From Polytrichum commune (lineage: Eukaryota; Streptophyta; Polytrichopsida; Polytrichales; Polytrichaceae), in the NCBI GenBank assembly GCA_950295325.1, contig OX485804.1, positions 6,446,001 through 6,510,000 of the forward strand: a DNA stretch of 64,000 bases, given 5' to 3'. The notes beneath the pieces are model-generated. The model made no database searches. It saw nothing but the letters and a program-made list of their open reading frames with translations, and was not told the origin of the DNA. The translations under genes and the position numbers were made by a program. Positions 9,776 through 35,144 of the stretch are shown here, piece by piece (the stretch's first letter is position 1; each line of letters starts with the position of its first letter).

Positions 9776-10390
9776 AGAAGAAGAAGAAGAAGAAGAAGAA
9801 GAACTCCGGTCTCCGGAGGAAGCCGCAGTGAATAAAATGTTTGTTCGTGAAACATCCTAGGCCATGCCTTACGGCAGTGGCGTTAGATGTAAAACTACTT
9901 CGCCCTTTGCAGGACGTAGACACTATATTTAGTAACCAATAGTAAATTTTGGTAGCCAGTTATTATGTATGGGCCTTGTTTGGGGTAGTTAGTGGGGGGG
10001 GATATGTATTGGGTTGGGAGTTTTATTTATTTATCAGAAGTCTTGGAGATCATTAATAGTTTGTCGATTTTCTAGCCTTCGCTTGTGGACTAAAATGGAA
10101 TGTGCGTATTGTGTGGCAATTATGTTAATTTGTTTAAACGTGTTTTTTTTTCATGATAGGGGGTGTGAACGTTGTTTCCAGTTTTTTCATTGATGGGATA
10201 TGTGTTGTGCCTCTTGCTCCCGCAATTAGTACCATGAGTGGGGCTACTTTCCAACCCTTTGTTATGATGTTGTTTATGAGTGGTTGGTATTTTATGATTT
10301 TTTTGTCTAAGGTTTCAGTCGCGAATCTATCATTGCAATATGTGAATTCGATGAACTGTATGGTGATATCATGTGTAGGGGTCTCTGGGG
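9776..10390 (-). mobile_element. LINE, 3' half, with (TTC)n tail
   Basis: On the minus strand this is the last part of a non-LTR retrotransposon: the end of its ORF (PPPETPTHDITIQFIEFTY ... GARGTTHIPSMKKLETT), a 3' untranslated part, and a terminal (TTC)n run (plus-strand AAG repeat at about 9776-9801). The same 3' sequence and tail recur at 48,657-49,150. The segment stops at GTCTCTGGGG (10381-10390), where the 15.9-kb transposon begins. Its protein resumes at 26,257 in the same orientation, so this and 26,257-28,000 are one LINE split by insertion. Confidence 0.85.
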
Positions 10391-10445
10391 GGGGAAAGTT
10401 AGTATGCGAGCGGAGAGCGGAGAGCGAAGACCGAAGAGCGGAGAA
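10391..10445 (+). repeat. left terminal inverted repeat
   Basis: Starts GGGGAAAG, then GTATGCGAGCGG at position 12 (10402-10413), followed by heptad-like repeats of the type GGAGAGC/GAAGACC/GAAGAGC. The right terminus carries the corresponding GTATGTGAGCGG at exactly the same offset from its own end. The heptads may be transposase-binding sites (inference). Confidence 0.8.
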
Positions 10446-10769
10446 CTCAATTTGAGACATGAAATGAGAGAGAAATTGCACCTATAACCGCGGGATTGAG
10501 GGAAAAATGTTGAACTATTTTTAGAAACTTTGGAGAGTTATGGACTCTATTACCGTGGAAATAAAGTAACATTTCCCTATTCATAAAGTTAATAGATTTT
10601 TGAAACATAGAAATATTAAAATAAAATACAAAATTAGGGCTTACATCACTATGACGTCACAATTATAATTACCAAAATGGTGTACTATATTTTATATTAC
10701 GGTAAATTAAATAATATTTACTATTTGAACGTGACACGAAGGAGGTTGGCGAAAAAAATTCTCCACATA
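10446..10769. other. subterminal AT-rich segment of the transposon
   Basis: Lies between the left terminal repeat and the pogo-like fragment. AT-rich, no ORF of note, no clear repeat. Confidence 0.5.
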
Positions 10770-11205
10770 CAGTCCACCCTCTATTACTGTTACACCTATA
10801 AGTGTTAACCATTTCCAAACGTTCACTTTATTCTACTCCCTACATATTGCACACTATAAATGTTAAACCTGTTAATTGTTAACAAAACGGTGTTCCCTTC
10901 TTTGTAAATTTGACTCTATAAATGTTAACGACTGAAATACATTCATAATTCACCCATGATTTGTAAACTTGATATTGAATAAAGTTTTGATTGGGTTTGC
11001 AATTTTGTGTATGATATTCTCTCACAATTACTCTTCACAATTGCTTATAGTTAGGACATGTTAAGATTTGCATATTGTTCAAAGAAGTAATTTTATAATT
11101 GTTAACTGTTAACACCTTTATACATGTAAAGTTCGATCCACTCCCGAGGGTTAACATTTATAGAGGGTGAACATTTGAGGGTGAACATTATAGATGGTGA
11201 ACAAA
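10770..11205. mobile_element. pogo/Emigrant-like fragment with inverted sub-repeats
   Basis: TA (10768-10769) followed by CAGTCCACCCTCTATTAC resembles the start of plant pogo-type MITEs. The motif CTATAAATGTTAACC recurs in direct orientation near 10795, 10856 and 10914, and in inverted orientation near 11150-11200 (GGTTAACATTTATAGAGGGTGAAC-like). A clean right end with CTG-TA is not visible, so the copy is probably truncated. It lies inside the large MULE, downstream of the methylase-like gene. Confidence 0.4.
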
Positions 11206-11546
11206 AATGAAGAATGCAATGCGGGTAGTATGAATTGGAGTGTGTTGGGTGGTGTGCAACAAGTATTATTGAATACTTATGATTCAAGGAAACAAGGAGG
11301 AGGTGTGTGAGGCAACAACTTTTTATTGGAGTGGGTGGATGCTACATTGTTTTGTGACTAGCGGTTAAGATTGTGAGAAGATGGTGGACTAAATTCTCTT
11401 TGGAGTATGACGACCACCAAGTGAAGCGTGATTTGAGAACAACGAAAAGATGCATTCAATGAGATAATTGGAATATTGAAATCCACACAACACTTTATAA
11501 ATCCAAATACCGATAAATCAAACCAACAAATCAATCAAACCCAAAA
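11206..11546. other. 3' flank of the methylase-like gene
   Basis: Non-coding. Probably holds the 3' untranslated region of the minus-strand gene ending at 11547. A TTTATAAA-type A/T-rich signal is seen near 11495 but I cannot assign a polyadenylation site. Confidence 0.4.
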
Positions 11547-14500
11547 TCAATCAACCATGAGGTCGTCACTACTAGATTCCCTACTTCCAAAGATACTACC
11601 CTCATGGCCGCCCTCATCTGAAGTGGAATCTAAGCTATGGCACTCATTATCCACCTCCGCAGAATGCTCGAAGAAGTCTAAGGCACGGGGGTCATAACGT
11701 GGAGACGGGGAACTAGCTTCGGTAGGAGAAGGTTGTGCCGCTAGTACCATCGCCATATCATGGGCATAGATAGGCAATGTGAATCCCATGGTGGGAGTAC
11801 CCAACACATCCGCTCCAACGCCAAGTCTGAAAAAAAACACGATAAATGTAAGAAAGAGGATGGAAAGTGTAAAAGCTGAATGGACAAAGAAAATAAGCGA
11901 AGAAGGTCATCATACTCACTTACTGCGAGGGCTCTGGCCTCGATCGCTTCAAGGCCGGCGGCCTCTTCTGCGTGCCTTGTGAAGCCTGCGTGGAAGCAAC
12001 AACAATGGATGGAGCCTTCACCGTAGGCTGAACACTCTTAAGTGGCTTAAGGACACGGTTGAAGGTGTCCTCGTCCTCCTCAAGAGCAACGATATGGCGC
12101 CCAAGCTGCCTGCATGCATGGATAGAAGTCCCTGTTGCGGAGGAAAGGTTAGCAAAGGAAAAAAAAAACAAACTTAGAAATTGAAAACTAGGATATGTTG
12201 GCAAGTGAATTAGGACATACCAACGCCTGCATTAATGTCCACCACAACCTGTCCAATGTCCGTAGTGGCCATGATCAAGGAGGACATGAAAGAAATATCT
12301 TTCTCCCGGGGACCACGCCAAGCTTTGGAGCCGTCCATGAGAGGAGTTGCGGTATAATTCATAATCGCATCATCCATGTCGAGCTCAATGCCAAGAGCCT
12401 TGAGCTCATTGGCATCGCGAAGGCGAAATGACGAGTGCCGGGGCCGCTTATCAAGGTCAGATCCAATTGTTTTGGTGGCACGAACAAGTAGTACAACTTG
12501 GAAGAGGTTGGTGGTCTTGTCCTTATGCTTAGCTGAATGTAGGCGAAGACGGTTGACTCCCAGCCACTCCTTGAAGATCGTGAACCCAAAAGCAGCGAAG
12601 TGGTCTTCAATGCTCTCCCTGAAATCACCATTGTCATCTGGATGAAAGAGGAGGAGAGCTCCATCGTCATGCAGGATCTCGTCCGCGAAATCGAAGAGTT
12701 CACCAATAAAATCGGAATCCAATGCATTCCAGGAAGGCACACTATAGGAAGGATCGGAGACATTGGGTACCGGCAGGTTCTCCGGGAGGTCGGCAATGAC
12801 AAGATCAGCCATGCCCACATCTGACCTCGCAACGCCTAGAGCTCTCCGCGGATAGGAGGGTGGAAGAGAAAGAATGAAGTTGGAAACATCCTGAAAATGA
12901 CGACGTTGATGAAGAATAGAGGCATTCAAGATGCATTCTGAAACAACTGGAGGACGCCTAGCAGATGAAAGAACGGGCGGAGGAGGCGGCCTGGAAAGAG
13001 TAGGAACTTGACTAAGAGTTGCAGTGGATGCAACTGCCGCCTCAGGTGAAGCAGGGGGATCATCCTCCACAGTCTTCAGCTTCCTCGCGCGCTTCTTTAG
13101 TGAAGACTCGTCTTGAGTCGCACGCTTCCTCCTCTTGGACTTCTGAGTGTTGGGCTCATCGAGAGTCGCAACAACCTCATCCGCCTCCGGAAGCTGACTC
13201 TCTAGAAGAACAACCTCATCGCTTTGAGAAGGTGGCTCTCCACCGGAGAGCCGAATCTTCAAGGCCGCCTCCTCATCCGGCTGCCACGTCCTCTTACACT
13301 CCAAGTACCAGCAACACTTGCGGAGATGCGGGAGGGAGAAGTTGCGCTTTTGAGCCGGGGAAAAAATGAAGGTGGGCGAAGAGGAATCCGACCATGCATC
13401 CAGAAATGGAGGAAGCTTCTTCAAAGCCTTCTTCTTGAAAAGCTCGTGCTTGATGTACCTTCACAACCAAGGAGTGAGGCCAATAAGCAACTTAGAAAAC
13501 AACTAGTTTGATATAAATGAGAACAAAAGATGGCCCAACTAACTTACCGGAAAATTAAGCGCTTGACAATGTTGTCAGCGCCTTTGACATCCTTCCACCA
13601 CGTCCCCTTTCCATAGATATCTGACCCTGAGAAGTGACCAATGAACGCCTTATCCCAAAGGCAAATTCGCCACTTCTCCAAGTAATCCGGCAACGAATCA
13701 ACTTCCACGTCTCCGTCAAGCCCACCCAATGCACTTAGTATATCCGGTAACTCCTTGACCGCAGCATCCTCTAGCTGTGAAGGAATTCAAGGCGAACATG
13801 AGAATTGGCACAAAATGAAGAATTGAAAGGTAAGCAAAGAAAATAGGATAGACGTACCCCTGCCCAGAACGCTGCTTTATTGAGCCAAGATTTCAAGTTG
13901 TCCTTGCTTGCAGGACTTTTGGGAAACCGGATAGCTTCACGATTGAAACTTCCACTGTTCCACCACTTAAGCCAACGGGCTTTATACTCTGGCTCGACAG
14001 CGGCAGTGGCAATGAGTTGCAATTTCTCCAATGTCATCTCAATCTTTTGAGAATGGTGGGCGCTATAATGCCTAGTAATCTGAAACAAATGCAATCAAAA
14101 TAGAAGGCCAAGTAAATTTTAGAATGTTTACTGAAAAAATGCTGCAAAGAATGCAAGCAATACGAACAGCATAATTCCAAATTGGATGACAAGGAAATTA
14201 CCTCATCTAGGAACTGTTTTCCAAGGGCAGGGTTTGCGATCGACTGTTGTTTGTTGAACTTGTGCCCAAGTTCCTCAGACGTCTTCTTAATTACAGCGTC
14301 CAATACATCACTCAACCCCTTCCCTGACTGCTCATCTAGAGGCACTTCCTCCTTGAAGATTTGGGCCGCCTCATCTACCGCATCGGCTATCTCTTGCTGG
14401 ACATGTATTCTAAATTGTTAGACCATGACTAAAAGTAATGAATGCGAAGTAGGAGCTTGATGAATTTGGAGTGACTTACATTGAAAATGAAGGACACCAT

Positions 14501-15491
14501 AAGATCCTGGGTCAGCGGGTACCAAGGGCTCTTGGGGCCTCTGCTCTTGCACGCTTGGAATTGCTCCTCGGTCAACAATGGCTGGTAGTAGCTAAGATCA
14601 TACGAACCGTATTTTTGGATGCGGTGTAGAGTGTGAACAAGGCTAGTCTTAACGTGCGCAGTCTGGTTAGCCCTGTTGCGGTTGAGATAAATGGCATTAG
14701 ATGAAAATAAAAAAATGAAGGAAAAAATGTTCAAAAAAATAACAAACTTACTTGTTTATGTCGTGCATTGCATTAAGGACGTCTCCACGCCCACCCGTTG
14801 TGTCGAGGATGACACATTCTGGGCAACCATGTTTCTCATACCAAAGTGCATCGTCCTTGTGCTCTGTTTCAATACACTCCTTCCACGCTAGCAAGCAGTG
14901 GTTACCATCATACACAAAGAACATGCATCCACTAAGGCTCATCAAGTCCTTATCCGAGCGCAAAAAAAACTGAAACTTATCATTTTCTGCATTCCATAGC
15001 TCTCCCCATTCACGCTTGTCTTTGGCAGAAATGAATCGATTCTCTCCACTCTCATTTGCAATAGACACATAAAAAGTGGCAGACCCAGCTCGGTATCCAA
15101 ATTGAAATGCTGCCATGAGCTTTGTAACGTCGCTGCGGAGAGTTGGCCGAACCAATGGCATGTGAATCAACCTGCAGAGAGGGATTCTCATAGAGGACTT
15201 TTCGACCGGTTGTATCCTCATGCCCTCAACAACTGAAAAACTATCTTTTTTAAAATTGTGGCGAATCCGATACTCCATTACAAGAACACCCACATCCGAT
15301 TCTGGTGGTGAGCCGGTGAGTGTCATCCCGGGTGTCTGCGGTTCGCCACTACCAGGTGTAAGCCCAGTAGGTTCAGCACATGACAACGGAGACCCTTGCT
15401 CCATATGCTCCTCTACACTAAGGGATGACCCAGCACCAATGCGAACCCCAACATCCAATGACTCTCCATCCGCAACCATCTCAACAATCTC
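11547..15491 (-). CDS. ParB-like / beta-class N6-N4 methylase-like nuclear protein
   Basis: Eight exons with GT-AG introns and continuous phase: 15491-14752 (ATG at 15479), 14672-14480, 14396-14202, 14079-13858, 13774-13548, 13458-12221, 12131-11924, 11826-11547. The product is 1,096 residues. Residues ~96-205 resemble a ParB N-terminal/sulfiredoxin fold, ending in DGNHCLLAW (191-199); the usual Arg of DGNHR is Cys. Basic stretches at 628-650 (KSKRRKR, KKRARKLK) suggest nuclear import. Residues ~739-965 follow the beta-class amino-methyltransferase order: ADLVIADLPEN (739-749) where (D/N/S)PP(Y/F) is expected, FADEILHDDGALLLF, then VDINAGVGTSIHACRQLGR (928-946) matching the SAM-binding FxGxG region and LGR-[HR]-hydrophobic strand. 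DLPE replaces the catalytic motif, so methylation is doubtful while SAM or DNA binding is possible. The C-terminus is acidic/Ser-rich. ParB-methylase fusions are known from phages and bacteria; the seven introns argue for long residence in a plant. A 5' non-coding exon ending at 15577 (donor GAG|GTGAGT) is likely. Confidence 0.85.
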
Positions 15492-15711
15492 CTGAGAATC
15501 AATTACTTACCAACATAAGAACCAATAGAATGAACAATGCCACCCAATATTTACATGATAATACAACCAAACTCACCTCAGCCTCATTGGGAGCTTTCGG
15601 CCATCCACAAAATCCACCTACCTCTAACCTTAGCCTTCTTGTGAGCTTTCAGCTACCCCCAAAATCCACCCGAAATCAGATTATATGCTAGCAAATATGC
15701 CATGTTTCTTT
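15492..15711 (-). promoter_or_regulatory. leader intron and upstream exon of the methylase-like gene
   Basis: On the minus strand TTGATTCTCAG precedes the first coding exon and GCTGAG|GTGAGT at 15577/15576 is a good donor, giving an 85-bp intron. Upstream of the donor the frame stays open but has no ATG before a TGA at 15651, so translation most likely starts at 15479. The sequence upstream of the donor is itself a member of the duplicated repeat family that follows. Confidence 0.45.
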
Positions 15712-16666
15712 CAAATATAATCTGACCTCTAAATCCCCCCCTAGCTATCAATTCGAACCACACTAAGAGCATCTAAACATGACTAAACCCTCACTAACGT
15801 GCACAATCCCCCAACTAATACCTGCCCGAATGAGCATCTGGCCTACCAAAAAGTCCAACAAAAATCAAATTTTGGGTGCACATTTCTGCCCCTAGGGGAC
15901 TGTCGGATCCGACAGTGCCCCTGGGCTTCCATATCATACCTCACAAGCTAAAGCCAGCCACAAATATTCAGGTGCTAACAAACACATTTCAGACCCCTAC
16001 CTCTAACCTTAGCCTCATTGGGAGCTTTCGGCCACCCACATAATCTACCATAATTCACATAATATGCTAGCAAATCTGCCCTGTTTCTCTCCACTATAAT
16101 CTGACCTCTAGTTTGTGCCCCTCCTAGCTATCAAATCGAACCACATTAAGAGCATCCCAAACCCTTAAAGGCCAAACAGATTATAGAGCACCTCTAAATC
16201 CCCCCCTAGCTATCAATTCGAACCACACTAAGAGCATCTAAACATGACTAAACCCTCACTAACGTGCATTAACCCCCAACTAATACCTGTCCAAATGAGC
16301 ATCTGGCCTACCAAAAAGTCCAATAAAAATAAAAAATTCGGGTGCACATTTCTGCCCCAAGGGGACTGTCGGATCCGACAATGCCCCTAGCTCTCACCTC
16401 TAACCTCACAAGGACCATCCAGCCACCCTAAACCTCCACCCCCAGCTCTCACCCTAAACCTCCCGAAAATCAAAAGCGAGGTGCCCATATCTGTCAGTAG
16501 GGGTCTGTCGGATCCGACAGTGCCCCTAGCTCTCACCTCTAACCTCACAAGGACCATCCAGCCACCCTAAACCTCCACCCCCCAGCTCTCACCCTAAACA
16601 TCCCGAAAATAAAAAGCGAGGTGCCCATATCTGCCAATAGGAGTAGGGGTCTGTCGGATCCGACAG
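15712..16666. repeat. 467-bp duplication and first palindrome-bearing repeats
   Basis: The block ending at the palindrome at 15900-15915 is repeated, ending at 16367-16382 (467-bp offset), with shared phrases such as ACCACACTAAGAGCATCTAA and GGCCTACCAAAAAGTCCAA. Two shorter units follow with palindromes at 16505-16520 and 16651-16666. These are longer variants of the 170-bp satellite further right. They lie directly upstream of the methylase-like gene and so probably include its promoter. Confidence 0.75.
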
Positions 16667-16726
16667 TGCCCCTAACGCTCACCTCTAACCTTACTAAGGA
16701 CGATGAAAAAGAAAGCAGAAGAAACG

Positions 16727-16788
16727 CACCTTCACCTTCACCTTCACCTTCACCTTCACCTTCACCTTCACCTTCACCTTCACCTTCT
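16727..16788. repeat. (CACCTT)n hexanucleotide microsatellite
   Basis: About ten CACCTT units, then a CTTCTC-rich tail to about 16830. ORFs on both strands through it (Ser-Pro or Glu-Gly repeats) are consequences of the microsatellite. Confidence 0.9.
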
Positions 16789-16861
16789 CCTTCTCTCCTT
16801 CTCCTTCTCCTTCGTCTTTTTCTTTCTTTAAGGATGCCTAGTGGGTTTGAAGCAAGGGTTA

Positions 16862-16958
16862 TGGGTTCGCCGCTCACATACTTCGCCGCTCCGCTCACAC
16901 AGACTTCGCAGCCTAAAGACGCCGCTCACCCTCGGAGACTAGGAGGCACAAGACTAAG
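16862..16958. repeat. internal copy of right-terminus-like sequence
   Basis: CCGCTCACATAC at 16870-16881 is identical to 26234-26245 in the right terminal repeat, in the same orientation, and is followed by further CCGCTCAC words. A former or alternative element end may be buried here. Confidence 0.5.
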
Positions 16959-17690
16959 GCCATGAGCTATGCGTAGCTCATGGCGTGGTGATTCTAGAAA
17001 GCTGAAGAACACCTCAATCGGAGGTGTGAGCTAGGAGTTATGGCCATTTGAGTGGGGCGCTGTCGCGGGACAGCGCCCTGGTCGAGCATTGCCTGGGAGT
17101 CATTCCCGGGACTGCCAAGGTTCAAACAGGCATAACGTCGTCAATACTTGCATGAATGGGTCAAGTGAGGGTCCATCGGCATCTACGTGAAGCGTAGATG
17201 AAGATGGAGTGGTTGGTTGTTGGAATCAAAAATCATACAAGAAAGTTATGGTGGTCTGAAGCTGTTGGGGGCTTCTAGGCCCAGCAGCTAAAGGAAAATG
17301 TCTACTTGGCCCCAACTCTTGGTAGAGAGACAAGAGGTTGGTTGACGGTGGGGTAGGGGCCCCTCGTAGAGTCCTAGAGGCTTATATGGCTGAGGTGGTG
17401 TGGCCTCACCCACCCGAGGCCGAACGGCACGGCCTCATTGGGCTTTGGCCCATTGTGAGGCCATAGTTGCATAGTATGGTTCGGGTTGTTGTAGTGTTGC
17501 TCCGGCAACGCGATGATCAACATGGGATTGGACTTCCATCGATGGAAGTCCACATTTGGGAATGGGTTACCGATTAAGGGGTGAGTCCCGAAAGCAAAGT
17601 AGGAAGGTTGGTTCCCCTCCTATGAACTAACCGGTCCGGGTAGGAGGAGCTAACCATTAGCTTGGCGGTATGCGAAGGGTTAGTACTCGT
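16959..17690. repeat. hairpin-dense island inside the satellite
   Basis: A 0.7-kb block unlike the satellite on either side, packed with inverted repeats: 16959-16969/16974-16984 (11 bp), 17009-17015/17021-17027 (7 bp), 17055-17064/17069-17078 (10 bp), 17180-17187/17193-17200 (8 bp), 17260-17269/17280-17289 (10 bp, one wobble), GGCCTCA/TGAGGCC at about 17431-17462, a perfect 24-bp palindrome at 17529-17552, and 17648-17653/17657-17662 (6 bp). No ORF of note. It could be a solo LTR, a structured non-coding RNA, or part of a nested element; I cannot decide. Confidence 0.65.
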
Positions 17691-17699
17691 AACCTATGC

Positions 17700-19690
17700 T
17701 AGAAATGCGAATTGGCAAGATTTTTAAGGGGACTAGCAAGGGTTGCGACAATCTAGCCACCCTAGAAAGCCACCAAAAATCAGATAATAACCTTGCATTT
17801 CTGCTCCCAGCTCTCACCTCTAACCTCCCGAAAATAAAAAACGAGGTGCCCATATCTGCCCCTAGGGGTCTATCGGATCCGACAGTGCCCTTAGCTCTAA
17901 CTTCTAACCTCACTAAGGACCATCCAGCCACACTAGGCTGCCACCAAAAATAAGATAATAACCTTATATTTATGCCCCAGCTCTCACCTTGACCCTCACG
18001 AAAATCAAAACCGAGGTGCTCATATCAGTCCCTAGAGGTCTGTCGGATCCGACAGTGCCCCTAACTCTAACTTCTAACCTCACTAAGGACCATCCAGCCA
18101 CACTAGGCTGCCACCAAAAATCAGATAATAACCTTACATTTCTGCCCCAACTCTCACCTTGATCCTCCCGAAAATCAAAACCGAGGTGCTCATGTCTGCC
18201 CCTAGGGGTCTGTCGGATCCGACAGTACCCCTAGCTCTAACTTCTAACCTCACTAAGGACCATCCAACCACACTAGGCTGCCACCAAAAATCAGAGAATA
18301 ACCTCACATTTCTGCCCCCAGCTTTCACCTTGAACCTCCCGAAAATCAAAAGCGAGGTGTCCATATCTGCCCCTAGGGGTTTGTCGGATCCGACAGTGCC
18401 CCTAGCTCTAACTTCTAACCTCACTAAGGACCATCCAGCCACACTAGGCTGCACCAAAAATCAGATAATAACCTTACATTTCTGCCCCAACTCTCACCTT
18501 GAACCTCCCGAAAATCAAAAGCGATATGCCCTTATCTGCCCCTAGGGGTCTGTCGGATCCGACAGTGCCCCTAGCTCTAACTTCTAACCTCACTAAGGAC
18601 CATCCAACCACACTAGGTTGCCACCAAAAATCAGAGAATAACCTCACATTTCTGCCCCCAGCTTTCACCTTGAACCTCCCGAAAATCAAAAGCGAGGTGT
18701 CCATATCTGCCCCTAGGGGTCTGTCGGATCCGACAGTGCCCCTAGCTCTAACTTCTAACCTCACTAAGGACCATCCAGCCACACTAGGCTGCACCAAAAA
18801 TCAGATAATAACCTTACATTTCTGCCCCAACTCTCATCTTGAACCTCCTGAAAATCAAAAGCGAGGTGCCCATATCTGCCCCTAGGGGTCTGTCGGATCC
18901 GACAGTGCCCTTAGGTCTAACTTCTAACTTCACTAAGGACCGTCCACCACCCTAGGAAGCCATCAAAAATTAGATAATAGCCTCGCATTTCTGCCCCAGC
19001 TCTCACCTCTAACCTCCTGAAAATCAAAAGTGAGGTGCCCATATCTGCCCCTAGGGGTCTGTCGGATCCGACAGTGCCCCTAGTTCTAACTTCTAACTTC
19101 ACTAAGGACTATCCAACCACCCTAGGAAGCCATCAAAAATCAGATAATAACCTCGCATTTTTGCCCCTAGCTCTCACCTCTAACCTCCTGAAAATCAAAA
19201 GCGAGGTGCCCATATCTGCCCCTAGGGGTCTGTCAGATCCAACAATGCCCTAGCTCTAACTTCTAACCTCACTAAAGACTATCCAGCCACACTAGGAAAC
19301 CACCAAAAATCAGATAATAACCTTACATTTCTGCCCCCAGCTCTCACCTTGAACCTCCCGAAAATCAAAAGCGAGGTGTCCATATCTGCCCCTAGGGGTC
19401 TGTCGGATCCGACAGTGCCCCTAGCTCAAACTTCTAACCTCACTAAGGACCATCCAACCACCCTAGAAAGCCATCAAAAATCAGATAATAACCTCGCATT
19501 TCTGCCCCTAGCTCTCACCTCTAACCTCCCGAAAATAAAAAGCGAGGTGCGCATATCTGCCCCTAGGGGTCTGTCGGATCCGACAGTGCCCTTAGCTCTA
19601 ACTTCTAACCTCACTAAGGACCATCCACCACCCTAGGAAGCCACCAAAAATCAGATAATAACCTTACATTTCTGCCCCAGCTCTCACCTC
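17700..19690. repeat. ~170-bp satellite with 16-bp palindrome
   Basis: Eleven head-to-tail units with palindrome positions 17870, 18040, 18210, 18381, 18550, 18721, 18890, 19059, 19230, 19400 and 19571 (spacing 169-171 bp). Each has CTGTCGGATCCGACAG or a near copy, flanked by CTAGGGG and CCCCTAG arms that extend the dyad to about 33 bp. 18210-18549 and 18550-18889 are almost identical, a recent 340-bp dimer duplication. ORFs of 60-128 codons on both strands run through several units and repeat with them, so they are not independent genes. The array separates the two divergent genes of the transposon. Confidence 0.93.
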
Positions 19691-20235
19691 TAACCTCACT
19701 AAGGATGCTGAAAATGAAAGCTGAAGAATGAAAGAAACGAAACGAAACGAACGAACGAAGGAACCGAACCGAACCGCACCGCACCGCCCGCTTCAACTTC
19801 CACTTCGAACCTCACTATGACCATCCAGCCACCGAAATTCATATGATCACCTCTCATCTCTGGCCCCTAAGCTATCACATCGAACCACACTAAGAGCATC
19901 CAGCCACCCTACAAAGCCACCAAAATTTCTGCCGCCCCAGCTCTCACCTTGAACCTTACTAAGGATCATCCAGCTCTCACCTCATACCTCACTAAGGAGC
20001 CCTTTGCCAACCCTAAACCAGCCATCTAAAGTCATTTGCGAGGTTCAAATTTCATCCCCCAGGGCTCTCACCTCAAACCTCTCCACGGGGCGACCACTGC
20101 CCTTCCCTCGAGTCACTCCCCCGCTCCAAATCGTGGCTGCAACCCTGCAAGCCTAGTTCAGAGGTCCGTTGTAATGCGGGGAACGATGGTAGGCTACTGC
20201 CGCGGCAGTCTTGTTCCCTTCCACTTGTGACGGTC
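19691..20235. other. satellite edge and simple-sequence patch
   Basis: Degenerate satellite phrases (CCTCACTAAGGA) persist to about 20,000. A GAAACGAAACGAACGAACGAAGG-type simple patch and ACCGAACCGCACC repeats lie at about 19733-19790. No gene is seen. Confidence 0.5.
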
Positions 20236-21655
20236 TCATTGTGATGTCGAGTGCTTCAACGGGCCCACACTTGTTGCCTTCTCTAGCTCACGAATACAAC
20301 CCCTAATTTCTAGTGCATATATGTTAACATCGACTTGAGGTTCATACCTGGGTCTCGCAAATTCTCGATAGATCATGTGATATCTCCACTTGTCTGGTCG
20401 TACCCACTCCAGCTTCCTTGCTAGCAATGTCTTCACCACTGTGAGTCTGGCTTCTCCGTATACGAGACCTTGACCGTGTGCGGTCTGGGGAGAATTCCAA
20501 TGCCTTGACTGTGCTGTTTAAGCTATCATATCGTTGTTTCGGTTGTCTCATCCTAGATGCCCTTAATTGCTTCCTGCTTGAGAAAAATGCCTTCCTCCTC
20601 CTCTTCGCCTTTGGTTTCACTAACTCTATCGGCGAGGACCCTGTCATGTAACTGAACCGGCTTCACAAATTCTACACTTCCCTCCTATGTGAACATCACT
20701 CTATCAATGTATGTGTCTCGCCTGTATTACATCCACACTAATATTCCATCCCATAATCTTTTTCACATAATGTCGATATGTTTTGATTACAGTCAAGTTG
20801 CTATAAACATATAAGGAATCATAAAAATGAACATTAAAATAATGGACACGGATGTCTAATAACATTTATAGAAATAATTCAGAAGTAATCTAAAAATGAA
20901 GAATATCATGTTTTATAAAAATAAAAATGATAGTACAAATGATAATACATAATTCAAACTAAACTAATTAGAAGAAATATTCTGTATAGCCATACCTTGA
21001 CGATACTCTTCCAACTAAACTAACTTATTCTAGCTTCTCCTTAAAGGTTAATGCTCTTCCCTTGCCCATTTCAATCTTCCACTCCAAAAGAAACACTTTA
21101 CTTTAGGGTGTCCCTTATATCCACTAAATGGTTCACGTGGTCTCTGGTGTATTTATAAGTACGTCACTCGGCATCCAGCCTCATGTTTGTTATTAATATA
21201 TCTAATTTGGATTGGCATATGATCATGACTAACTTAAGTAACTGCTCCACTGCATTTTCAATTTTAATTCAAATTGACCCTTACCTTACACACCTTTCTG
21301 GCAAGATGTTCTACGTTTGGGAGGGAAACTTTGTTAATTCCATTTGTCTCGTATCTTTCGTGTTGTGCCTTCTTCCTTCCCATTCTACTTGTCTTCAATG
21401 CCTTAGTGCTACTGAAATACAACTTCCCTCTCTTTTTCCTTCTCTTGATATGATTTTGCATGTCAGGTATCACCCTTCCAGAGCATGTCTACTCCAACAT
21501 TCCCAAAATCCTCCCTTGAACCGAACACATCTTACGGCACTCGAGAGTCCATAACTTATGATTCTAAAACAAAGGAGTTGAGTATCACGAGATCTTATAC
21601 AAGTGTTCGCACGAGGGACAGTCCTATATTTAATGCCCAATTGGGTCTTTGTCAT
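20236..21655 (-). other. possible minus-strand exon pair, unknown
   Basis: Two minus-strand ORFs, around 20342-20647 and 21264-21473, share a pattern: basic run, (F/Y)FSS-x-K-x-L-[KR]-x-SRM, Lys/Gln-rich, RY[DE]. Another frame at 20236-20439 reads LEWVRPDKWRYHMIYREF. They may be eroded duplicate exons of a third element gene, or chance. 20700-21180 is AT-rich without features. The transposase promoter should lie somewhere between here and 22002. Confidence 0.2.
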
Positions 21656-22001
21656 TCGTTCTATTCCTGTCTTGAAACGTCAAGTCTATCTCTAGACCTA
21701 GTTATGATACATGCTTTAAGTCGGCGCCAAATAATCAAATTTAATTGCTTGTCGAGTAGAATGTCTACCATGACTTGCACGCTGTACTTATATATATCGT
21801 GACAGCGTTACCCATCACTTTTAGACCCAAGGGCGGCTGTTTCCATATTGAAAATATTAGTGAAGCTTTCGTTCAGAGTTCATCCATCATGTGGATCATG
21901 TCGTTGTCGTTGGCAGCCCATTTGTAATATATAGATGGCCCACAATGTTTAGAATCCTCTTTCATATTTCCATCTTGCCGCAAGGGCTCATTCCCCTTAT
22001 C

Positions 22002-25000
22002 ATGGCTCATATTCCTGCTATTGGAGACTTGGGGTTGGCTGTCCTCTATGCAGATGGTGTGAGAGTCCCAGTTACCTTTCGGATGCAAGAGGACGGTCTA
22101 GCTTACGTGACGTCCCAACGTCTGAGTATTCGGTTCGGCTTCAGAGAGGATACTATTATTGTTGACGAGGATATTTTTGATGTTGTCACGTCAGAACTTA
22201 CATACACCCTTGGTCGGGTATCGCAGCGAGATGAGAATAATAACTTGTTTTGGAGTCTTCCTCCAGGTAGTTACCGAGTGTATGGCCTCACTGATTCTCA
22301 GATGGCTGCGTCTACTGAGATCCTCACTCCTCGTAATTCCTCTACGTGCACCATTCAAACTCCTCTGCCACGTGATGTGAAGGTCAAGCTCGAGCCCGGT
22401 CTCGACACGCCAATTGTAGAAAACGTTAGAGTTCAGTCTGTAATTACACTTTCTTCAGATGAAGAGGGCAGTCCCACCAAGCCCCCGCCTCAGGTTATAG
22501 TTAGTGGGAATGCTCCTAAAGTATATCCTTTGTCCCAAGAGACTGTTAGCATATTTCCATTGCTAAAACAACTTGCAGGAAGGCCGGGAAAAAAAAATAT
22601 TCTAAAAAAATTAGATTACTCAGTGATTAAACACGAGAGAGTAGAGTACCTTCCTGCTGAGTTCGATGGTGTCGTCATATTTGAGTTGCCACCCGCTAGT
22701 GACACGGCCGCACGGTCACAGGCCAAGTCAATGCAGGGAATGGACAAGCGTTACGACGGCCATGTGTGGACGAAGACCATCACCACCAACATCACAAACG
22801 ACTTTGGTTTGTCCTTCCATTCTTCCGCTTGCGTTGGACACCTGCGTTGCAACAACAAGGAGTGCGAATATTTGATCCGCCGACCTCGTATTTTCGAAGT
22901 CAACGAGACAGAGTTTGAAGGTTGTACCCTCCAAGCCTTTGTAGTGGATCAAACGCCCCCACCTGACTCTACGTTTGTTTGCAAGGTATGTAAAGAACCC
23001 CCAACATGTATTGCTACATGTGGAGCGAAAATTTATTATGTTGCTGGCAAAAACAACCACACAAGAGCGTGCATCCACATTGGAACTCACGATCACCCTG
23101 TCAAGGTGGGCGACTACAGAGACACTAAGGCTGAGATCAGTGGCCTAATTGAAGAACAGATCGAGAAGACTCCTCAGGCTACCAAGAGTGCACTTGTGTT
23201 GGAGGCTAGCAAAGTTCTAATTGGCAACTATCTTCTTCAATCCGATGACGCGCCACCAAAGAAGCTCACTCTGGAGGAACTTGTTCCTGTATTCGACCGG
23301 TGCAAGGACATGGCTTCCCCGAACATCCGCAACAAGGTCATGAGCTTCCGATACCTCAAAAGGTATGGTGTCATGGACTCTATCACCAAACTCCGTGGAA
23401 TCAGTTTATGGGCCTTTGTTCAGGAGAACAAATTCCCTGGTCAAGGGGCTGATCTTGACAAGGTTTTTGTCTTCAAGATGTCGGAAGTCGGGCCTGGTAG
23501 TGGGGTAGACTTGGTGAAGCGTATGCAGCCCGGCGAAGATCTGGAGAATGCTTGGATGATGTTCGACCATGTGAAACGGGTTAGACAATGGACCACAATG
23601 GCATGCCACGTGTATGACTCCACGTATTGTCGTGTCATGACCATTGCAAGTTGTGACATGCAATCGGAGGACTGTGATGCCCAGATCGTTTTTTGGAAGA
23701 ATCTCAATGCTGTGATGGAGAGGAATGGTGTTGTCGATACCAACTTCAAGGGTTTCATGGCCGACAGCGCCCAGGCCAATTGGAATGCAGTTCGGGTCAT
23801 ATATGGCAACGGGAAGAAGGAGGACCGCATGGATGACCGGGAGAGAACCTGTCAGTTTCATTGGACCCAATCTATGGTTAAGTATACCGAGAAATACATT
23901 CCCGAAGAACTCTGGGAGCAGCACAAGAAGATGTGCCACCAATATAGGACCGCGAGGACCATGGACGAAGCGGAAAACCTGTACCACGGGCTACGTGCAT
24001 GGTGGGTATCCGCCGGGGCAGTGACAGAGAAGGCACTTGACAAACTGGAGCTCTGGCTTGCATTCTGGCATTTCCGTTATCGCCAATGGGGAGGCTTCAT
24101 GACCGGGGTATGTTGTCCCAAAACTTGTTGTTTTTTTTTTCTTTCACTGTAATTTTCACAACTCTTCTCCAATTTATAATTGCTTCCACTATGTGCACGC
24201 AGAAATTTACAGAAGGAGAACTAGCAGAAATGCCTTCATGTAATCTCGCCGAATCAATACACAACAAGTGGCTTCAAGCGTCTGGAAATAGCGGCGGCGA
24301 CCTCTATGTTGCTACCGTGGACGACTTCGTTCGAGGCTTCCTACAGGTTGTCAATTACTACCAGTTCCTGAAAGGTGATGTCGGCGGTACAGGCCCTACA
24401 AAGAAAGAGCTCAAGCTAAGGTTGGCAGAGCGCAGGGCGAAGCAAACGGGTAATCCTTTAGTCCTCGAAGACCCCATGATGGACATGCCTGGAGCAGAAG
24501 AGTTCTGTACCCGGGTGCCTTGCATGGCTGGGGAAGAGGTATTCGGGTCCACGAAACGGAAAGCAGATCTACCTCTTGGAGCAGAAGAGGAGTCGCACAG
24601 ACCTGATAAGGTCAACTTCTCACATCCCCGTGGCTCTGGTAGGGCTGTCCGGACTCGTTCCACTAACATGCCCATAATTATTGAAGAGGATGATTCCAAT
24701 GTCCCGGAAGTTGCACCCATGGCGCCATATGCCGACAATGTCGTCCCGTCCCACATCCCCGAGGGACGGATCAGCCACGTCACTGCCGTCGAGGAGACTA
24801 GGGTGAACGTGAAGGAGTGGCACATCGCTCGGTTGCCAAAGACTTCTGCCAAATGTTGTTGGGCACAGAGAGCTGTCACCAAAAAGAAGTGTACTGAGAG
24901 AATCGTAAGGGGTGCAAAATCAACCCCTGCCCCTACGTACACCGGTCTATGGCACAGCACTAGGAGGAATGTGAAAGAGACCACAGAGTTTTTCTTCTGC

Positions 25001-25687
25001 TCAGATGATATCCATAGGTGCGTTAAGGGTAGCAGGCGCAAATGGGTTGTTCAATACTCTGCGGAACAGGAGAGACCAAGCATTCCGGATGTTTGGCCAG
25101 TGAAACTTGGCACTAACCTCAAGCAATGTGAGATCCTGGCCCTCGAGGCGGCCGGATTCCAACTGCCGCAGAAAGTGCCAGTCTCACCCAGAAGGCTCTT
25201 TTCCACTGCACCGTCTCCGGCAAATCTAGACTCCGTGCCGGTGCCAGCAGATGCGGACAGGTATCCTGGGAAGAGAGAAGGGAAGCTCGTTAAGCGCACC
25301 GCAACCCGTCCAAACCCTCAGCAGCGGCTATCCATGGGCTCTTCGGACTCCCTCAAAGCTCAACTCCGCTCGGTCACAATGATTCCTCACCCTGGCCATG
25401 GCTGCATCATTGCGCTAGACTCGATGATGCCACCCGATGTGACACAATACCATATCACCATCAGTTCCCTCCCGGGTTGCACATGCCCTGCGTTCAAGAA
25501 GACAATGACCAACTTTCGAGGGCGGAATCAATTCTCGTATTGCAAGCATGTTTACTATATTCTTTTAAAGGTCTGCCATCGCAATCCTGATGTAGACCTT
25601 TTCATCCACGCGCCAACCTTCAGCTTCAACGAGGTCAAAGTAATTCTCGATAGTGGAATTTTAACTCACCCTTTAGATCGGACCTAG
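22002..25687 (+). CDS. Mutator-like transposase with SWIM finger
   Basis: Two exons, 22002-24107 and 24203-25687, joined in phase 0 across a 95-bp intron (GGG|GTATGT ... CACGCAG|AAA), give 1,196 residues. I chose the ATG at 22002 (MAHIPAIGDLG); the frame is open upstream to 21891, so an upstream start is possible. An acidic VITLSSDEEG (147-156) resembles a SUMO-interaction motif. Residues ~280-365 hold a Cys/His-rich region (C283, C287, CxxC at 327-330, C336, C340, C357, H363, H365) like the WRKY/GCM1-type fingers of MULE transposases. The DDE core shows D539 (VYDSTY), D588 (MADSAQANW) and C617-H620 (TCQFH), the C-x2-H signature of MULEs; the catalytic Glu cannot be assigned by eye. The SWIM finger is C1128, C1130, C1149, H1151. 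It should bind the terminal repeats and move the element. All frames are open, so it may be active. Confidence 0.92.
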
Positions 25688-26189
25688 GATTTACTCTAGG
25701 AGTGTCCCTTTCTCCCATCAACATGATAGATCGATGAAGTAGTGCCTATTCATCCATGTTTCTAATCGAGTACGACATAGACTAAGTGATATAAGATTTT
25801 CATTGAATAATTTAAGATTGTCAGCTCAATAATATAATAAATACAATCGCATGGATTATTTTTATTCAACTCAAAATGTTGGATTACAATACTCAACTGT
25901 ATCATGTGTCTCTATACATCTTGGGATCATCCTTGGTTTTCATCATCTACTTATTTATTATATCACAATTTTACTATCATTTTTGCACTTCACGGTTCCC
26001 AAACTAAATCAGACCATTTCAAATTCAAGGCATTTATTTTATTTAGTGCCTACACATTCCACGGAAATAGGTCCCAACTTTTTTCTATTTCTGGCATAAT
26101 CTGGAATATTCTAAGTATATTCTTGTACTATTTTTAGGAAATTCTAAATTTAATATAGAATATTTCCTATTTTTACACCATTTCTGCTC
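25688..26189. other. 3' flank of the transposase gene
   Basis: AT-rich non-coding DNA between the stop codon and the right terminal repeat. It should hold the 3' untranslated region; no terminal-repeat copy or ORF of note. Confidence 0.5.
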
Positions 26190-26256
26190 TCCGCTCTCCA
26201 AATCGCCACTCTCTGCTCTCCGCTCTCTGCTCACCGCTCACATACAAGTCTCGTCC
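26190..26256 (-). repeat. right terminal inverted repeat
   Basis: Read inward on the minus strand it starts GGACGAGACTT, then GTATGTGAGCGG at position 12, then GAGC-type heptads, mirroring the left terminus. The duplicated GTCTCTGGGG follows at 26257-26266 and the LINE coding sequence resumes in a G12 run. Confidence 0.8.
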
Positions 26257-28000
26257 GTCTCTGGGGGGGGGGGGTGGTTATATGGATGGCCTATGATGCA
26301 TAGTATGTCGGGTTTGAGCCTGGCGTTGCAATGGCATCTTTGGGTATCACATGTACATGGAAGTAGCCATGAAGGGACTATATTTTCTTGGGGTAGTTCA
26401 TTATGCGTTCCTTCATTCATTAATGTATAATGTCTTGATATTCGAGTTGATACAATGAGTTTGCGTATTTCCCATACCGCTTTGTTATGTTTTTTTGTTA
26501 TTAGTGCATGGATGTGTTGTTGTTTGCATTTAAGTAGGACATGTAGCCATGTATCCGCATCTGTTGAGCTGCAGATAGGACATGTTCTCGATGGAAAGGC
26601 TTCTATGCCAAAGAAGAGTTGTTTTCGGGCGTGACCCATATATTGTCCAGTTCGGGATTTTATTAAACATGTTTTTTGTTTATCTGTGATGGCGGGATTC
26701 GTCCAAAAATCATTTGATAGTATTTTATCTATGTCGTCATTTTCTAGCCATTTGTGTAATTGGCTCGGGGAGTTCACTAGACATGTATATATGTGTACAC
26801 GTGCGTGACAAGGGTATTTATTCAAGGGGTATTTAATTATCCATCCTTAATTTTTTGTACCAATTTTTATATAATTTGCTAAATTTTTATTTTTTAAATG
26901 ACCCTATAATTACTTTTAAATTTGATGAAGCTCTAATTTTAAGCTAGGTATGTTCATTATAATTATTCGATTTTGCTCCAAAGGGTTTAAGAGCATTCAA
27001 AGTATTAAGTCACCCAAATCCAAGGCACAACAAGGTTTTACATCAAGAGTGTTCATAAACAGTTTTTCATCCAAAAACTTCCCGCCTCTGAACAAAAAGA
27101 ACACCTTATTTCAAAAAAAAACCTAGGATCCTTAAATCCTACGGTATATTTTTACAAATATTTTTAAAATATGCATTGTTTGTATCAAGCCTATATTATT
27201 TATAATACAAATTTTATCATACATACTCGCCTATATTACTTATAAGAAAATTCTAAGTTTTTCCTTTTGTGAATATAAATTACCCTATATTTTCCCGCAT
27301 GTTGTTTTCTAATATTATCGCAGTGAACTCCCCGAGGTAATTAGTGTGTTTGATTTGCTATAATTGTTAAGTTATGTTCATTGCCATGCTTGAGGATGTG
27401 TTTACTAAGGTGCCTAATGGGGCCCTTGTCAAGTGTTTCTTGCATGGAATGCCACCAATCTTTTTGTAGGTAGTATGGTGTAGGGTGTGCATGCTCGTAT
27501 GGGACTGCGGCATCTCTATGGTCTAGTTCACATCCTTGTTTGGCTAGTGTATCTACTTGGTCATTTCCCCCTATGTTTGCGTGGGCCTTTATTTTGTGGA
27601 GTGTGGTCAATGAAGACACAACTAATGCAGAGTAACGTTCCATGGAGAGGACCATATGAAAAAGACCTAACTCTTTGCACTTTCTCATTAAAGCATCGAC
27701 TAAGCTCATAGGTGTTGTCCTTGATGCTTACACATTTATGGGTGATATATATATCCTGGATTTGAGTTTGAACTCTACCATCAATGGCCACTAAGCTTAT
27801 AGCATCCATGTGTGTCTATGCTCCAGGTGCATTGATTCATACTTGTCGCATTTGAAAGAGATGTTGTCATCTTCAATACCAAATTCACCTTTTTGCAGAA
27901 TCCAATGCCATCTCCTTTGATTGGTGATTCGCAATCCTTGGAAACATGGCCACAAAAAATGACAAAGAGTTTGTTTAAAAAAATCCAAGGAAATCCAATT
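26257..28000 (-). mobile_element. LINE, internal half with RNase H and zinc knuckle
   Basis: This is the rest of the LINE whose 3' end is at 9776-10390. On the minus strand, from about 28,000 down, come an RNase H-like region (SLVAIDGRVQ, HKIKAHANIGGNDQVDTLAK), then after a 573-bp MITE (26764-27336) the C-terminal zinc-binding segment (CPICSSTDADTWLHVLLKC) and HPYNHPPPPET. At least two frame breaks separate the ORFs, so it is dead. No reverse transcriptase core is visible, so the copy is 5'-truncated, ending near a C20 run at 28130-28149. RNase H plus a C-terminal zinc motif fits plant LINEs of the L1 or I type; I cannot choose. Confidence 0.85.
26764..27336. mobile_element. 573-bp MITE, 8-bp target duplication
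   Basis: The terminal repeats CTCGGGGAGTTCACT (26764-26778) and its exact complement (27322-27336) are flanked by GTAATTGG (26756-26763) and GTAATTAG (27337-27344). The uninterrupted LINE copy at 49.7 kb confirms the empty site. No coding capacity; AT-rich. An 8-bp duplication fits the hAT superfamily. Related to the element at 30179-30677. Confidence 0.9.
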
Positions 28001-34337: not shown

Positions 34338-35144
34338 ATGGCAGGAAGGGACAGAGTGCACCCGACATTCTATCCTGAGATATCCGAGCCTGTAAGTCCT
34401 TCAGAGAGGTCTACTGCAACCGGTTATAGTTACCAACCTAATTTTCAGCCAACAGTGAAGGCATACACAACTCCAGGATTTGTCAGCCCTGCCCGTCCCC
34501 CACCAAGTGTTATTGGCCGGCCCCCGCGTGTGCCTGAGAAGCGCAGGAGAGCCCGGAGTGGCTGCCGGACTTGCCTCCTAGCAAGTTGCTCAATACTGTT
34601 CCTTTTCATATTTGCCATTGGATTGGCCTCACTAGTACTCTGGCTTGTATACAAACCAAAGATCCCTACATATAGTGTACGGGATGTTCATATATCTACC
34701 CTGAATGTCACTACGTCCAGTGCTCAGTCGTATGTCAACACTGACATCCTTTTCACCATCCTTGCCAGTAATCCAAACGAAAAGATCAGAATAGACTACA
34801 AGAAGGTGAATATTTTGACCACATTTCAAGGGTCTAGTGTTGGACAGTCCACTATTCCGGGGTGGTCCCAGGAGCCTGGCAACTCCACAACAATTTATGC
34901 TCATCTCAATGCTAAGAATGCTCCCCTCTCAGTGAGTCAGGGTTCTGCTCTGCAGACACAGATCAGAGGTAACGATGTATCCCTACATGGTAGGATTGAC
35001 ATAAAGGTAGGAATCAAGATTGGTGCTTGGAAAACGCCTGGTGTTTGGATTCACGTAGATTGTGATTTTCAAGTAAGTCCTCCTAGTGCACCTAGTGGTA
35101 CGAAATTGTTGAGCAAGTCTTGTAAATGGAGCTGGAAAGGGTAA
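34338..35144 (+). CDS. LEA2-domain NDR1/HIN1-like membrane protein
   Basis: Single exon, 268 residues. The N-terminal ~75 residues are Pro/Ser-rich and end in a basic patch (EKRRRARSGCR). One transmembrane helix spans about 79-105, followed by YKPKIPTYSVRDVHIS. Residues ~112-245 form an LEA2 domain, with the family's NPN motif (145-147) and N-glycosylation sites (NVT, NST). This is the architecture of the NHL family: cytosolic N-terminus, single anchor, extracellular LEA2 domain at the plasma membrane, often tied to defence or stress in angiosperms. Length fits the family's 200-270 residues. The start ATG follows an in-frame stop and has an A at -3 (CATCATGG). No operon-like context; its neighbours are repeats. 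Physiological role here is not shown by sequence. Confidence 0.92.
   Translation: MAGRDRVHPTFYPEISEPVSPSERSTATGYSYQPNFQPTVKAYTTPGFVSPARPPPSVIGRPPRVPEKRRRARSGCRTCLLASCSILFLFIFAIGLASLVLWLVYKPKIPTYSVRDVHISTLNVTTSSAQSYVNTDILFTILASNPNEKIRIDYKKVNILTTFQGSSVGQSTIPGWSQEPGNSTTIYAHLNAKNAPLSVSQGSALQTQIRGNDVSLHGRIDIKVGIKIGAWKTPGVWIHVDCDFQVSPPSAPSGTKLLSKSCKWSWKG

Follow-up and report, generated by a model that had tools for sequence, protein, structure and literature searches.

The element and its insertion site

The DNA analysed here, called the window, is a 64,000-nucleotide stretch of the Polytrichum commune genome (assembly GCA_950295325.1, contig OX485804.1, forward-strand positions 6,446,001 to 6,510,000). 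At window positions 10391..26256 it holds a DNA transposon of 15,866 bp with a transposase gene on one arm, a divergent gene for a ParB-like and methylase-like protein (the partner gene) on the other, and arrays of iterated palindromes between the two. The element splits the minus-strand coding sequence of a long interspersed nuclear element (LINE), whose downstream part lies at 10134..10390 and upstream part at 26257..26846. The 10-bp target duplication GTCTCTGGGG is found on the left at 10381..10390 and on the right at 26257..26266. Five placements of this duplication fit the G-rich insertion site; the tips were fixed from other copies of the element.

When the LINE flanks are joined without the element and one 10-bp copy, a single open frame runs over the junction; the frame is broken if both copies are kept. 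Searched against the genome, the joined flanks gave 40 scored matches (1024 candidates), all of which cross the junction, and the three inspected base by base are continuous except for a G-run of variable length. Because removal restores the frame and every scored match crosses the junction, 10391-26256 is a genuine insertion into a repeat that is present uninterrupted in many other copies. An earlier note, made from the letters of this stretch, had placed the element at exactly these coordinates, with GTCTCTGGGG on both sides and a resuming LINE frame; all three points held, the frame having been tested for 10134-10390 and 26257-26846.

Recent copies and terminal structure

A genome search with the transposase exon gave 59 scored copies (2380 candidates), of which 19 are 97-100% identical and constitute family A. 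The ends of all 19, the window copy and 18 further ones, were inspected. The same two tips, GGGGAAAG and GGACGAGA, occur in every copy; the 10-bp duplication is perfect in 16/19, has one mismatch in 1/19 and is lacking in 2/19. As a control, flanks were mispaired between copies, and only 1 of 342 pairs reached at least 9/10 matches. That pair consists of two neighbouring copies without duplications of their own. These are A copies in opposite orientation at G000:C1:20216734-20268736 (L017-L020) that have AATTGGTATC in common crosswise, and they look like the outcome of recombination or inversion between the two. Over the first 400 bp inward of each tip the mean difference among copies is 0.4% and 0.8%, and by this similarity family A is a recent, mobile family that has gone through a recent burst. 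The earlier note had staked its claim on other loci sharing both termini; such loci exist, and their target duplications differ.

The left tip (10391..10445, plus strand) consists of GGGGAAAGTTAGTATGCGAGCGG followed by GAGCGGA-type heptads, and the right tip (26186..26256, minus strand) of GGACGAGACTTGTATGTGAGCGG and GAGC heptads, read inward. The number of GAGCGGA heptads varies among family A copies. The end word GTATGYGAGCGG begins at base 12 counted from either end and occurs 221 times in the genome, against 41 for its reversed control. The termini described earlier as matching without gaps do align gaplessly, with the end word and heptads in the places given, but the match is imperfect. 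A third end word inside the element was considered as a nested or composite end and rejected: the sequence that follows it (window 16870) is unlike that of the real termini, and at this place family D lacks a perfect word. This word, GTATGTGAGCGG at window 16870-16881 on the minus strand, has similar inner counterparts in several other A copies.

Related families and mosaic origin

Further elements were examined from families B (12.6 kb), C (14.7 kb), D (14.6 kb), E44 (13.6 kb), E45 (13.3 kb) and, in part, E46. The layout with the partner on one arm and a divergent transposase on the other is common to A, B, C, D and E44; the E44 transposase frame is interrupted by stops. In E45 the partner is present and the transposase match is a weak remnant; in E46 the piece examined ends within the transposase match. 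A perfect 10-bp duplication fits all six complete families (A, B, C, D, E44 and E45); in most of them it can be placed in several ways. Their tips differ, yet heptads of the GAGCGG/GTGAGC type point inward in all six, with 3 to 12 matches to heptad-type words in the outer 120 bp versus 0.10-0.35 per 120 bp in mid-element.

Transposase identity to A is 90-94% in B, 77% in D, 51% in C and 42% in E44. Partner identity to A, by matched stretch, is 71-98% in C, 42-59% in D, 29-44% in B (methylase part only) and 27-39% in E44. Family A itself is a mosaic: element bases 1 to ~958 and the transposase arm (11365-15808) match B, and the partner gene and its surroundings from element base 1014 match C. 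Two more elements combine a B-type transposase with an A/C-type partner, and in L041 an A-like left tip stands together with the partner. Judging from A's arms, its partner region and these further mixed pairings, the partner cassette has moved between transposon backbones at least once.

Pairing of the two genes is frequent. A partner relative in the expected orientation (upstream, on the opposite strand) lies within 30 kb of at least 50/59 transposase copies, versus 0.5% of random positions; by type, this holds for 19/19 A, 4/4 D and 27/36 B-type copies. These counts are lower bounds because the partner table comprised 81 of 106 rows (mainly second pieces of loci being omitted) and the B table 65 of 158 matches, at identity of at least 76%.

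Palindrome arrays between the two genes

Between the genes of the window copy, 14 sites of the palindrome CTGTCGGATCCGACAG (11 exact, 3 with one change) lie at 15900..19586. Two tandem arrays contain this palindrome, one with a 139-bp unit repeated 2.3 times (16360..16685) and one with a 170-bp unit repeated 11.5 times (17747..19697). Tandem repeats and an iterated palindrome occupy the same interval in A, B, C, D, E45 and E46. A and C have CTGTCGGATCCGACAG in common (11 and 6 exact copies), B has GTGCCGTTAACGGCAC (19 copies), D has TGGTCGGACCCGACCA (10 copies, the two centre bases unpaired), E45 has GTCTCGGATCCGAGAC (4 copies) and E46 has GTTTCGGTCCCGAAAC (9 copies). Set against five first-order Markov shuffles per element, GC-containing palindromes are in excess in 7/7 elements, with 7-25 versus 0-6 in six of them and 6 versus 0-2 in E44. 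The genome contains 374 sites of the A/C word and 268 of the B word; the reversed controls of both have 0. Among the matches listed, all on C1, a B partner exon lies no more than 6 kb from each of the 5 B clusters, and an A/C partner exon (ParB exons counted) no more than 8 kb from 5/6 A/C clusters, the sixth being 36-39 kb off.

For five array regions (T1-T5), expectations were written down before the sequence was fetched; the outcome was two exact, two near and one failure. T2 and T5 contain the expected word in 3 and 9 exact copies. T1 has 0 exact copies of it and instead eight of TTGTCGGATCCGACAA, a symmetric double change from CTG...CAG to TTG...CAA. T4 likewise has 0 exact copies and instead 18 of TGGTCGGGTCCGACCA, whose centre pairs. 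The failure, T3, is discussed below. The palindrome core is more constant than its flanks in 8/8 elements (0.97-0.99 versus 0.83-0.96, for units picked by flank similarity and a flank consensus derived from exact-core units). Elements with the same partner type have flanks 40-67% alike and cores 88-100% alike; in the close relatives B1 and T5 the values are 95% and 100%. By eye, nine iterated palindromes have a central CG-N4-CG with differing outer arms. Comparison across several families shows palindromes that keep or restore dyad symmetry while their sequence changes.

The transposases of A and B, at 90-94% identity, go with different arrays; those of A and C, at 51% identity, go with the same palindrome. 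In mosaic elements, these comparisons show, palindrome type follows the partner, with whose gene it is inherited, and not the transposase.

Two further palindromes were observed. In families C and E46 (L039, L046) a 26-bp second palindrome, AAGAGGCCTCGGATCCGAGGCCTCTT, lies near the left tip, outside the central array; the left-end palindrome of C is counted among the nine above. At L073 (G000:C7:22977500-22987400), whose palindrome is also counted there, GTCTCGGTCCCGAGAC is repeated ten times beside a B-type transposase, and no partner match was found within the 10 kb examined.

The partner protein

The partner gene (11547..15479, minus strand) has eight predicted exons with GT-AG introns and a predicted product of 1096 aa, with a ParB-like N-terminal part, a middle region and an N6_N4 methylase-like C-terminal part. 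The second large gene on the opposite strand claimed in the earlier note is thus an open, spliceable frame. For the two exons compared between A and C, the ratios of nonsynonymous to synonymous substitution (dN/dS) are 0.14 and 0.20 (Nei-Gojobori), values that show purifying selection on these exons as estimated from the sequences.

Exons 6-7 (11924..13458, minus strand) encode the methylase-like part, with DLPE in the position of DPPY (within the stretch that starts at residue 739) and VVVDINAGVGTS at motif I (residue 926). This part matches PF01555 with E=2e-5 and 25.1 bits, just under the curated cut-off of 26.7, and phrog_3008 with E=1.3e-7; its sole PDB match is CcrM, with E=0.12. The partner is matched by 74 phage records, weakly, at E from 3e-4 to 1. 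When the protein is aligned with each of two phage genes that carry an adenine methylase annotation, DLPE stands opposite DPPY and DLPF; the E=1e-9 of the phage methylase alignment refers to a two-protein database. A scan for viral contigs gave one weak locus, L070. Active N6/N4 DNA methylases carry the catalytic motif IV (D/N/S)PP(Y/F/W). None of the seven families has it: B shows EYAD at the DPPY place, and the other six (A, C, D, E44, E45 and E46) show D(L/I/V)PE. Four sequences extend as far as motif I, and all retain it, A and C with VxDxxAGxG, B and E45 with close forms.

The ParB-like part (residues ~99-243) is encoded by exon 1 (14752..15479, minus strand). A PLCR...VR...D...L...GNH...W pattern in the N-terminal part is conserved in five families. 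The Box II-like GxxR motif reads GNHC in the window copy. At 48 A/C-type genome sites, found with a 27-base pattern allowing up to two mismatches, the arginine of GxxR is present in 46 (in one of them with the G changed), replaced by H in one and by C in the window copy; GNHR is found at 45 of the 48 and in the C, D, E44, E45 and E46 elements. The description of this gene as ParB/methylase-like thus stands for the methylase-like part by profile, and tentatively for the ParB part, by motif and a weak profile match. AlphaFold models of single exons had a mean pLDDT (per-residue model confidence) of 33 and 35, were unusable and were set aside.

The transposase and its class

The transposase gene (22002..25687, plus strand) has two predicted exons (22002-24107 and 24204-25687) and a predicted product of 1196 aa. 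A candidate DDE triad, D539-D588-E719 with C617-x2-H620, was picked by eye and is conserved in a five-family alignment. Near the C-terminus a CxC...CxH arrangement is SWIM-like, with E=0.14 against the SWIM profile. Between A and B1, dN/dS is 0.23 and 0.30 for the two exons; all dN/dS values come from our own Nei-Gojobori script.

Mutator-like elements (MULEs) make target duplications of ~8-11 bp, and their transposases have a DDE triad with C-x2-H between the second D and E and a SWIM-type zinc finger. The 10-bp duplication of the element falls within this range, as does the perfect 10-bp repeat that can be fitted in B, C, D, E44 and E45. MULEs typically have long terminal inverted repeats (TIRs) of more than 100 bp, and TIR-less groups exist; the tips here are short and imperfect and carry heptads. 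The Pfam MULE profile PF10551 gave no match at E<=5 for the spliced A transposase or the C39 and E44 stretches, nor at E<=1 for the exon open reading frames, in searches where HMMER filters drop most matches above ~0.1. By eye, none of the 142 listed PF10551 matches in the genome falls on any of the 59 transposase copies. Alignment with hhalign to the genome's own MULEs was uninformative, the profiles being built from few, similar sequences; such profiles fail to link even a pair of known MULE groups, which likewise got no further than 6%.

Pfam holds a profile for each of KDZ, Sola, CACTA and hAT, and Sola elements make 4-bp target duplications. A Pfam-A scan of the spliced transposase returned zero families at E<=5, hence no KDZ, Sola, CACTA or hAT match, and the transposase exons yielded no usable family in Pfam, PDB or phage searches. 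Of the "intact MULE transposase" first described, the open, spliceable transposase gene stands, and the Mutator-like label has no profile confirmation. A Mutator-like identity is plausible but unproven, its basis being the length of the duplication and motifs identified by eye.

Proposed role of the partner and alternatives

The element is read here as an autonomous cut-and-paste DNA transposon of a DDE/SWIM-like kind with 10-bp duplications, whose partner would bind the palindromes in a parS-like manner and keep the element expressed, probably without methylating it. This reading is tentative and falls just short of an even chance. The transposase would act at both tips, and the 7-bp repeats, present in all six families whose tips were examined, may have a part in this. 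A dimer would bind the palindromes, the partner being the simplest candidate. With its ParB-like part fused to a methylase-like domain, the partner would bind between the divergent genes, as ParB does at parS or VANC at its motif, and its binding may keep the element accessible and transcribed or mark it as self. The catalytic aromatic of DPPY is replaced by glutamate in most families, so the partner is probably non-methylating; we think that it is mainly a DNA-binding or clamp factor and not an active methylase. By analogy with VANC proteins, we think an anti-silencing or self-marking role the most likely.

Several observations weigh against this reading. The ParB-like part has a weak profile match only (phrog_1033 in 3/5 members, best E 0.042) and no Pfam, NCBIfam or relevant PDB match; no helix-turn-helix was identified. 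The ParB-like part was not found in the B element examined (B1), which slightly lowered our confidence in the explanation; B nonetheless has a palindrome array. The GNHC of the window copy is a private change by which the arginine of GxxR is lost. T3, where a third type had been expected, and L071 have no iterated palindrome. E44 has only an AT-rich type in three copies (around TTCTGCA..TGCAGAA), and E46 (L046+L051) has a second iterated palindrome, TGAAGCCTCGGCTTCA, both without the CG-N4-CG core. On whether the transposase and the second gene always travel together, a point raised in the earlier note, pairing is the rule given above, and 9/59 transposase copies have no partner match within 30 kb. 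Three of these nine, examined over 10 kb, likewise had no partner match, one of them having the B palindrome and one a new palindrome. Linkage alone could also make the array and the partner gene travel together, as they lie side by side; together with the ParB-like part not found in B1, this linkage is the chief reservation.

This last point is central to an alternative in which the partner is a long-kept passenger without joint function, the arrays are satellite-like repeats or sources of hairpins or small RNA, and co-segregation is due to linkage only. The arrays do adjoin the partner gene, repeats expand easily, and the regions without iterated palindromes and the nine unpaired transposase copies would be accommodated. 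Against it stand the purifying selection on the partner exons compared, the symmetric changes, the greater constancy of core than of flanks, and the CG-N4-CG common to nine iterated palindromes by eye, though two others are without it; we regard it as unlikely. We give the same low weight to the view that the partner actively methylates adenine at N6 or cytosine at N4 and so marks the DNA of its own transposon, with the palindromes as methylation sites. Such a role has been proposed for algal relatives (PMC12477816, in its passage on accessory proteins), and it would agree with the PF01555 and phrog_3008 matches, the alignment to phage adenine methylases, the retained motif I and the GATC within the A/C palindrome. 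It is opposed by the DLPE, DIPE, DVPE or EYAD at the DPPY place, where phage relatives have DPPY and DLPF, and by the palindromes of B, D and E46, which lack GATC.

The palindromes might also be bound by the transposase or a host factor instead of the partner, and the arrays do lie upstream of the transposase gene as well. A and B transposases of 90-94% identity with different arrays, and A and C transposases of 51% identity with the same palindrome, make this quite improbable. The preferred reading, binding by the partner, can be taken further: the families may form a eukaryotic transposon superfamily with its own ParB-parS-like system, in which a nucleotide-switched ParB-like clamp, fused to a catalytically dead methylase, loads at family-specific palindrome arrays, spreads along the element and keeps it open or self-identified, with swaps of the clamp and array cassette among transposase backbones diversifying the families. 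This wider proposal is speculative and is considered rather doubtful.

Apart from the element, the window contains a LEA_2 family gene at 34338-35144 (E=6e-8).

Relation to known systems and significance

The earlier remark that the element fits no MULE group known to its author is in line with what is known of MULEs, but ParB-methylase partner genes are already known from giant algal transposons (PMC12477816). The passage of that report concerning them puts such accessory proteins forward as potentially a new class, able perhaps to bind and modify the transposon that encodes them, and names no target. The likeness is close: a giant DNA transposon with a ~1100-aa ParB-like and N6/N4 methylase protein on the strand opposite the transposase (PMC12477816, same passage). 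The present elements differ from those described there in their land-plant host, 10-bp duplications, other transposase, DxPE motif and palindrome arrays. In the open-licence literature no report was found of palindrome arrays with such genes or of the family in a land plant. As far as that literature shows, the different transposase, the land-plant host, the DxPE motif and the candidate target arrays are therefore new relative to the algal precedent.

VANDALs are MULEs, and VANC proteins are of another kind than ParB-methylase partners. The VANDAL/VANC system of Arabidopsis is similar in combining an accessory protein with a short, repeated, family-specific noncoding motif whose repeats are gained and lost by tandem duplication; in the part of the report that deals with them, VANC proteins are shown by experiment to bind the repeated motifs and cause loss of methylation (PMC5735166). 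Here the sites are 16-bp palindromes, the kind of protein differs, and binding by the partner is predicted from sequence.

The parS site is a 16-bp palindrome. With bacterial ParB-parS the partner system has in common a GxxR Box II-like motif, a palindromic array and a domain fusion, and in the part of the source on ParB-CTPase-fold proteins, N6_N4 methylase fusions are frequent in phages (PMC12704722). It differs in that no ParA was seen in the element and the ParB fold has no profile confirmation. Transposons with a DNA methylase gene are also represented by dinoflagellate and charophyte retrotransposons carrying cytosine methyltransferases, for which the relevant part of the source describes demonstrated de novo CG methylation (PMC5890265); those are C5 enzymes in retrotransposons.

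The element adds a land-plant genome and another kind of transposase to the known range of ParB-methylase partners, and it supplies candidate target sites for these transposon helper proteins. Families A, B and C amount to a natural swap experiment, and with several matched families in one genome the role of the protein becomes directly testable. The finding also questions whether methylation is the job of such partners at all.

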